64,000 nucleotides of DNA from Halococcoides cellulosivorans. Lineage in GTDB: Archaea > Halobacteriota > Halobacteria > Halobacteriales > Haloarculaceae. This document shows positions 3,509 to 42,505 of this stretch, one piece after another (the stretch's first letter is position 1; every line of letters begins with the position of its first letter). The notes beneath the pieces are model-generated. The model saw only the letters and a program-made list of their open reading frames with translations. It made no database searches and was not told the origin of the DNA. The translations under genes and the position numbers were made by a program. The DNA lies in NCBI RefSeq assembly GCF_003058365.1, contig NZ_CP028858.1, forward strand, positions 1,054,001 to 1,118,000, read 5' to 3'.

Positions 3509-3760
3509 ATGAAGCGGCTGATCGTCCACGGCGATCCGGGGATCCGCCGGGACGCCGTGATCGACGTCGACGGTGAAGAGTACGTCTGTTTTGCGATCAA
3601 TCGCCAGGGCGAGTTCCACGGGCCGAGCGAGGTGCAACTCTGGTGTACGGTCGGCGCGCGCGACGAACGCGACGCCTTCGAGCGCCGGGAGTTCATTCCG
3701 ATGCATCTGGAGACCGTCGCGGTCGACGCCGAGGACGTGTCCGTCCGCGAGGCGGCCTGA
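3509..3760 (+). CDS. small conserved haloarchaeal protein (HAH_0734-like)
   Basis: An 83-residue acidic protein starting MKRLIVHGDPGIRRDAVIDVDGEEYVC-. It resembles the haloarchaeal HAH_0734 family of unknown function, judged from memory of that family's opening and of its EFIPMHLETV segment. There are no membrane segments and no obvious metal or nucleotide motif beyond a single Cys in YVCFAI and one in LWCTVG. It lies downstream of the cobalamin adenosyltransferase, but no functional link is shown. Its role is unknown. Confidence 0.8.
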   Translation: MKRLIVHGDPGIRRDAVIDVDGEEYVCFAINRQGEFHGPSEVQLWCTVGARDERDAFERREFIPMHLETVAVDAEDVSVREAA

Positions 3761-19819: not shown

Positions 19820-20272
19820 GCTCTGTGGTACGTCGGTGGTACTGGAAAACCCTCCGCCAGTGTCGTCGGTGGTCTACAGACACGGACTGAACGGAGAACC
19901 AGCTTCCCGCGTCAGCCAGCCGAATCCTGGTGGACTGAAAGGGGAGGGGCGGCTCGACGAACCCCGGCGACGCAAGCCGCGAGGCGCTACGCGCCTCGGG
20001 CCGTGCGAACGGCGAAGCCGTGAGCAGACACCGCAACGGAGCGAGGAGCGCAGCGAGAGCGAGACTCGAACGAAGTGAGAGTCTCGACCGCGAGCGGCGA
20101 AGCCGCGAGCGCCGCGGGAGTGCTGCGAACGAAGTGAGCAGCACCGCGAAAGACGAGCATCGCGAGTCTTTCGCTGGTCGAGCGCCCCGAGGGCTTTCGA
20201 AGCGGTCCCACCACCCGAACGAGAACCACCCAACCGAAACCCGTTTCCACCCGACACGAATACGCACCGTCA
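19820..20272. repeat. intergenic hairpin array with a conserved loop
   Basis: About 450 bases without a gene. From 19981 to 20174 it is a chain of six perfect hairpins: 19981-19997, 20009-20021, 20060-20086, 20094-20106, 20120-20144 and 20146-20174. Two of them (20060-20086 and 20120-20144) have unrelated 8- and 7-bp stems but the same 11-base loop GAACGAAGTGA. The last has loop GAGCATCGCGA. The short ones share a GAA loop. Stems are fully complementary although different in sequence. Confidence 0.85.
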
Positions 20273-41269: not shown

Positions 41270-41660
41270 TTCGTCGGGGCTCGGGGACTCGCGAGGCGGT
41301 TCCGCCTCCCCGTTCCGATTCGAGGCGTCTCCGTGCGCTGGCGCTTACTCGCGGGTCACTGCGTTCCCCGCTCGTGATTTCGAGACGCTCCCGATGGTCG
41401 CGTCTCGCTTTACTCAGACGCCTCGCCGTTCTCCACGGCTCGCGCAGAGCGCTCGCCGTTCCGTTCCGAGGGTGTCTCCTTCAGTTCGTTCAGTCGCCAC
41501 CCTCGCCGTTCTCCGCGGGTCGGCTCCGCCTCCCCGCTCCGATTCGAGGCGTCTTCGTTCGCTCCGCTCACTCAGACGCCTCGCCTTTCTCCACGGCTCC
41601 CTGACGGTCGCCGTTCCGATTCGAGGCTTCTCCGTGCGCTACGCTTACTCCGAAGCCTCG
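41270..41660. repeat. hairpin array downstream of the rhodanese gene
   Basis: About 390 bases, non-coding except at its right edge. Inverted arms: 41293-41308 (GAGGCGG/CCGCCTC); 41321-41330 with 41416-41425; 41381-41388 with 41400-41407; 41467-41474 with 41498-41505 (CGAGGGTG/CACCCTCG); 41545-41554 with 41574-41583 (CGAGGCGTCT/AGACGCCTCG); 41622-41630 with 41652-41660 (CGAGGCTTC/GAAGCCTCG). Stem changes are matched on both arms. Loops keep CGTTCGCTCCGCTCA-like sequence. The last arm lies inside the rhodanese coding end. Confidence 0.85.
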
Positions 41661-42505
41661 CCCTTCACTATCGGCGCACCCACGAGGTTACCCCACTCAG
41701 TCCACGAGCCGTCGTAGTTGACGGCGTCGTAGCCGAGCAGTTCGTGCAGCGCGAACCAGGCGACCGAGGAGCGCTCTCCGATCCGGCAGTACGCGACTGT
41801 CGTCTCCGATCCCTCGATGCCGACGTCGGCGTACAGGGCTTCGAGTTCGTCGCGGCTCTTGAACAGGCCGTCCTCGTCGGTGACGGCGGCCCAGGAGACG
41901 TTCTGGGCACCGGGGACGTGGCCGCCGCGCTGGGCGGTCTCGGTCAGGCCCGGCGGGGCGAGGACTTCGCCGCTGAACTCCTCGGGCGAGCGGACGTCCA
42001 CGAGCGGCAGGTCGCGCTCGATGGCGTTTTCGACGTCTTCGCGGTACGCGCGGATCGTCTCGCGGGGACCGCCGGCGTCGTACTCGACGCTCGGGTAGTC
42101 CGGGACCTCCGTCGTCGTCGGGTAGTCGTTCTCGATCCAGTACTCGCGCCCGCCGTCGAGCAGTTTCACGTCGTCGTGGCCGTAGTACTTGAACTGCCAG
42201 TAGGCGTAGGCAGCGAACCAGTTGGCGTTGTCGCCGTACAGGACGACCGTCGAATCCTCGGTGATGCCGGCCTCACCGAGCAGCGCCTCGAAGTCCGATT
42301 TCGTGAGGATGTCCCGCGTCGTCTGATCCTGGAGTTGGGTCTCCCAGTTGAATCCGATCGCGCCGGGCGCGTGGCTCTCGTCGTAGGACTCGGTGTCCAC
42401 GTCGACCTCGACGAGTCGATACTCGGAATCGTCGGACTGGAAGGCGTCCAGATTGTCGTCGACCCACTCCGCCGAAACGATGACGTCGTTCGCGTAGTCG
42501 CTCAT
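41645..42505 (-). CDS. sulfurtransferase with two rhodanese domains
   Basis: Moves sulfane sulfur between donors and acceptors such as cyanide or thiols. The 286 residues hold an inactive first rhodanese domain (about 10-140, VSAEWVDDNLDAFQSDDSEY; DGGREYWIE) and a second with the active Cys in VAYCRIGERSSVAW. GGHVPGAQNVSW is the typical linker motif. It is a full-length member of the thiosulfate sulfurtransferase class. The last codons (GEASE) lie inside one arm of the hairpin 41622-41660, which is the right end of a hairpin array. Confidence 0.95.
   Translation of the reverse strand: MSDYANDVIVSAEWVDDNLDAFQSDDSEYRLVEVDVDTESYDESHAPGAIGFNWETQLQDQTTRDILTKSDFEALLGEAGITEDSTVVLYGDNANWFAAYAYWQFKYYGHDDVKLLDGGREYWIENDYPTTTEVPDYPSVEYDAGGPRETIRAYREDVENAIERDLPLVDVRSPEEFSGEVLAPPGLTETAQRGGHVPGAQNVSWAAVTDEDGLFKSRDELEALYADVGIEGSETTVAYCRIGERSSVAWFALHELLGYDAVNYDGSWTEWGNLVGAPIVKGEASE

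Follow-up and report, generated by a model that had tools for sequence, protein, structure and literature searches.

Tandem units that each begin with the 3′ end of a tRNA are known from the E. coli tyrT locus (the 178-bp repeats and rtT RNA), where they occur at a single locus. DNA mini-hairpins of the d(GCGNAGC) type, with tandem sheared GA pairs in a PyGAPu context, are known from chemistry and aptamers, and the d(cGNAg) kind is very stable in single-stranded DNA. We know of no hairpin of the d(GCGNAGC) type that serves as the core of a genomic repeat in archaea. The bacterial REP/BIME repeats resemble the hairpins described here in being short, intergenic and palindromic, in forming two-hairpin clusters and in their many intergenic copies per genome. 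REP-like repeats have been reported for archaea by RepRanger (PMC12306157). Like the present hairpins, the PATEs and SMRs of Haloquadratum walsbyi are transposase-free palindromic repeats of haloarchaea; the PATEs are IS605-related, have near-terminal palindromes and cause no target duplication (PMC3119063).

The window, a stretch of 64,000 nucleotides from a 2.72-Mb haloarchaeal chromosome, carries a rhodanese-like gene followed at its 3′ end by four related units of ~78 nt each, repeated in tandem with a spacing of 77-80 (Table 1). Read on the rhodanese strand, each unit passes from the gene end, or a direct copy of it with a stop codon, through a loop to an inverted arm and then to a short hairpin B. 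The three units beyond the rhodanese's own end each hold both a direct copy of the gene end and an inverted arm. Within 280 nt the array has four perfect hairpins whose arms reach 8 bp or more, compared to 140 in the whole 64 kb (~0.6 expected). The best direct matches of the rhodanese end to the array are 19/22 and 17/20 nt. With the top three direct matches summed, the rhodanese end ranks first of 560 with a score of 35.5, narrowly ahead of the best of the 559 others (33.5). Its inverted match alone is unexceptional in the genome, as 156 of 559 gene ends score equally high. The three variant arm pairs reported in the initial annotation are present and perfectly complementary (CGAGGCGTCT/AGACGCCTCG, CGAGGGTG/CACCCTCG and CGAGGCTTC/GAAGCCTCG), and the loop words of the array match, as it had stated, those of a cluster near 20 kb (window 20072-20159). 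That annotation also used the rhodanese stop region as an arm of the last hairpin. The right arm of this hairpin does consist of the codons for GEAS, so that on the rhodanese strand the last codons form the left arm of hairpin 1, but the stop codon lies in the loop and the heading given to the feature was slightly off.

Table 1. Rhodanese-like gene, hairpin array units and second hairpin cluster, in window coordinates.
Feature	Coordinates	Strand	Basis
Rhodanese-like gene (286 aa) with two matches to the rhodanese domain	41645..42505	(-)	ORF; PF00581 E=4.8e-29
Unit 1 hairpin A, arms CGAGGCTTC (41622-41630) / GAAGCCTCG (41652-41660), rhodanese stop 41645-41647 in loop	41622..41660	(-)	
Unit 1 hairpin B, arms ACGGC/GCCGT	41593..41614	(-)	sequence
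Unit 2 direct gene-end copy, VEKGEASE*	41568..41594	(-)	
Unit 2 hairpin A, arms CGAGGCGTCT (41545-41554) / AGACGCCTCG (41574-41583)	41545..41583	(-)	
Unit 2 hairpin B, arms GCGGG/CCCGC, differing from unit 1 in both arms	41515..41537	(-)	sequence
Unit 3 direct gene-end copy, diverged, AENGEGGD*	41490..41516	(-)	
Unit 3 hairpin A, arms CGAGGGTG (41467-41474) / CACCCTCG (41498-41505)	41467..41505	(-)	
Unit 3 hairpin B, arms ACGGC/GCCGT	41435..41459	(-)	sequence
Unit 4 direct gene-end copy, VENGEASE*	41410..41436	(-)	
Unit 4 hairpin A, arms CGAGGCGTCT (41321-41330) / AGACGCCTCG (41416-41425), split by nested hairpins	41321..41425	(-)	sequence
Nested hairpin in unit 4, CGAGACGC-GACCATCGGGA-GCGTCTCG, GA/GA core	41381..41407	(-)	
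Nested hairpin in unit 4, GCGGG-GAACGCAGTGA-CCCGC, canonical GA/GNA core	41351..41371	(-)	
Unit 4 terminal hairpin, GAGGCGG/CCGCCTC	41293..41308	(-)	sequence
Second cluster of same hairpin class, three hairpins with GA/GA cores	20060..20174	(+)	

The hairpins form a class with variable arms around a near-invariant core, arm-GA-xC-GNA-Gx′-GA-arm′. The geometry considered was a triloop on two inner pairs, followed by a 2x2 mismatch and by arms of 7 bp or more. In 864 kb of the genome (the window and 40 stretches amounting to 29% of the genome, a few of them picked for holding hits), 26 of the 29 hairpins with this geometry have GA/GA as the mismatch (TC/TC when read on the opposite strand). All 49 non-redundant perfect hairpins pooled from several genomes have C-G as the inner pair adjacent to the loop. 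Their loop is mostly GNA, and a C precedes the GA in 41 of them. Most arm positions carry low information, with 36 distinct arm 7-mers among the 49. The closing C-G, the GNA triloop and the C before GA fit the d(GCGNAGC) mini-hairpins. The loop of hairpin A in unit 2, GAGTGAGCGGAGCGAACGA, has nested GA/GA mismatches and a GGA triloop, and the array loop GA-GT-GA-GC-GGA-GC-GA-AC-GA follows the same grammar in a longer stack, with the stop codon TGA inside it.

We find the class enriched only in Halobacteriales: in most genomes of the same family and order GAACGNAGTGA occurs well above the level of its reversed control, and in the phylum's other orders it stays close to that level. In Rfam, only tRNA matches were above the gathering score (12 loci searched, the array among them). 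The literature searched held no published description of the hairpin class, and an exact-sequence literature search with the loop words gave no haloarchaeal match. Two other loci showed runs of hairpins. Three nearly identical tandem 68-nt units with hairpin A and hairpin B are found at L253 (G020:C2:416295-416453), and a long run of back-to-back hairpins comes directly behind the stop codon at L136:9267-9600, where the gene has a GGM-rich end and presumably encodes a thermosome subunit.

The initial annotation asked whether in related species the arms track the local gene end, and comparison of orthologues showed that they do. In 18 array-bearing orthologues, picked by eye, the sequence after the stop holds the complement of the species' own tail, with a mean of 6.56/7 and 12 of 18 perfect 7-mers. 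The comparison with species having a different tail gave a mean of 5.37/7 and 1% perfect, with 0/5000 permutations, and it is through this comparison that the link between arm and gene is significant. Across 57 genomes, 8 of 9 exact hits of the D-type ends and 5 of 5 of the E-type were at the rhodanese locus. Orthologues with the same stems but different gene ends, named beforehand as the outcome that would tell against that reading, did not turn up. Where the gene end differs, the arms in most species differ as well and match it.

Array presence varies between close species. The site in G042 reads ATCGAGAAGGGCGAGTAAGGTCGCTCACGCGA. In G031, a member of the same genus, ATCGAGAAAGGC and AACTGAGGTCGCTCACGCGA are separated by ~165 nt that contain hairpins and a new stop, with the old stop and flank displaced downstream and GAGAARGGC repeated. 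From filled and empty sites, the latter of which could also be precise deletions, we conclude that the coding sequence can have an array within it, which supplies a new end and stop and displaces the old end downstream between short direct repeats. Several array-free sites end shorter (EKGN*, EKGE*) and we therefore dropped the idea that GEA is simply the native gene end; other array-free sites end GEADD*. In the cleanest pair, G051 differs from G038 by an extra block of ~125 nt, an E-type unit with its own GEAE* end and matched arms (CGAGGCC/GGCCTCG) unlike the old end CGAAGCGGAC. Downstream of the added block, the former GEADD* end is retained with its hairpin. At least in G051, the array thus grew by whole units and not by fresh inverted copying; that the added unit was preformed counts against the fold-back account given below. 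The proposal in the initial annotation that the array grew by inverted copying of the current gene end is not supported. That reading is right on the arms following the gene end and only partly right on how the array grows. The unit is at least as much a source of the gene end as a copy of it. Tandem unit copies, identical in the stretch read, number four in G040 and two in G008, and whole-unit tandem copies are also present in G020.

Unlike REP/BIME elements, the hairpins do not keep one arm sequence across loci; the arms are locus-specific, track the gene and are complementary to the adjacent gene end. The core also differs, being GA/GA plus GNA, and the units extend into the end of the coding sequence and provide its stop. 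One possibility is that the hairpins are a non-autonomous element of the REP/BIME or PATE type, made of preformed palindromic units and moved by a transposase (IS200/IS605-like or other) preferring gene 3′ ends. Consistent with such an element, the core is common to dispersed loci and some arms recur there. The arms GAGACGC, CGTGGCC and GAAAGAC are found at unrelated loci, suggesting dispersal of finished hairpins. Filled and empty sites with short direct repeats are also found, and Haloquadratum is known to carry PATEs with near-terminal palindromes (PMC3119063). However, most arms are locus-specific and match the adjacent gene, unlike an element of fixed sequence, and the target stretch that is repeated ranges in length from about 9 to 70 nt. 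PATEs and IS605-type elements are said to cause no target duplication, while the present units stand in tandem with gene-end repeats, and direct repeats flank or separate them. We consider a mobile element of this kind a somewhat unlikely explanation.

The explanation we consider best, and think about as likely to be right as wrong, joins a stack of units, their gain and loss by recombination or slippage, and arms that first came from fold-back copying. Each unit consists of two hairpins, a hairpin A with locus-specific arms and a stacked GA/GA core, often with a GNA triloop, and the short hairpin B. In the rhodanese gene, the last residues and the stop are also encoded by hairpin A, in its left arm and loop. 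A newly added unit would become the new gene ending and push the old ending downstream. Recombination or replication slippage at the direct repeats probably adds and removes units, and the recombination may include the passing of preformed units from one strain to another. Gene 3′ ends and tRNA tails may be favoured since a gene goes on working when its end is repeated. The sequences show the unit structure, the tracking of the gene by the arms, displacement of the old end and tandem duplication.

For the first origin of the arms, fold-back template switching is our best guess. Less surely, the core mini-hairpin might let a 3′ DNA end fold back and prime on its own strand. The folded-back end would copy the adjacent gene end to give a perfect inverted arm, and the polymerase would then return to the original template, repeating the gene end directly. 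The genomes compared yielded neither a strand-switch intermediate nor a de novo event of very recent date. It is possible, though doubtful, that Halobacteriales carry a self-perpetuating fold-back repeat, in which an ultra-stable GA/GNA mini-hairpin copies the adjoining gene end into a new hairpin and repeats that end, with protein and tRNA termini repeatedly replaced. More generally, the hairpin units would show how non-coding repeats can rewrite C-terminal residues and tRNA tails with the gene unbroken, and they provide a natural archive in which template-switch-like events in archaea can be counted. They would also account for the hairpin-rich 3′ flanks of haloarchaeal genomes.

Covariation of the arms alone could also come from selection for pairing. 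The hairpins might then be 3′-UTR structures acting at the RNA level (in termination, stability or processing) and kept by pairing selection, with tandem duplication as a side effect. The GA hairpins are mostly intergenic, at gene 3′ ends, the GA strand is more often sense relative to genes and the arms are compensated, all in favour of this view. Likewise, in Haloferax volcanii hairpins lie upstream of 503 mapped RNA 3′ ends, and one coding-region hairpin terminated 59% of transcripts (PMC7237163). However, the orientation of the GA strand is mixed and presence differs among close species. In addition, of 32 imperfect arm pairs in 81 GA hairpins, perhaps 6 of which we estimate to arise by chance, 10 are GT, 4 AC and 18 other, while all 17 imperfect pairs in the tRNA acceptor stems of the same group are G-U. 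The minority of GT pairs argues against upkeep by RNA pairing alone, and we find a purely RNA-level explanation unlikely.

The arrangement at the rhodanese locus recurs at at least one other gene with such an ending, where the initial annotation had suggested looking. A gene that by eye resembles the one for 30S ribosomal protein S3Ae (L267, G031:C1:454400) ends in GEAE* and has a matching hairpin arm past its stop. A nuoI-like gene (again named by eye) has its last ~70 nt directly repeated past the stop in G075 (L212, about 3545-3605). At the same gene the differences between G063 and G084 are matched changes, and the G091 gene end has no such hairpins. Across protein genes, direct copies of the gene end numbered 9 (~4.45 expected), and inverted copies with matches of at least 12 nt were not in excess (3 seen, 4.35 expected). 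On these counts we rejected gene-end copying as a universal effect at protein genes.

The tRNA genes show a pattern parallel to the rhodanese array. With other tRNAs masked and the expectation taken from the flanks of other tRNAs, 11 of the 22 tRNA genes of the genome have their own 3′ tail copied at most 500 nt downstream (0.24 expected), a count that may be somewhat high as some loci were brought in by array or core hits. The same test found no upstream tail copies. Tail copies are present at 7 of 29 tRNA genes in four other haloarchaeal genomes and at 0 of 26 in three genomes from outside the order. Several tRNA genes also have inverted T-arm copies between the tail copies (6 seen, 1.6 expected, a background raised by the similarity of the T-arm consensus). 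In the own genome, tail copies are found for example at L101:3916, L116:453, L128:9960 and L138:6568, some in tandem arrays. The units resemble the E. coli tyrT repeats in beginning with a tRNA 3′ end, but here about half of the examined tRNA genes in one genome are involved and the hairpins share one grammar.

The tRNA copies span the T-arm to the 3′ end, like tRNA att cores, and the repeated gene and tRNA 3′ ends could accordingly be the attL and attR relics of integrated elements. We consider this very improbable. The copies are mostly 60-250 nt apart with only hairpins between them, too short a distance for an integrase gene. Half of the examined tRNAs are affected, and inverted copies, tandem units and protein genes are involved as well. 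Behind several tRNA genes, in the flanks L010, L119 and L122, a T-run is followed by antisense-oriented GA hairpins of related sequence, which in L119 and L122 is CACCTGAGCGC..GCGCTCAGTGAAACGGC.
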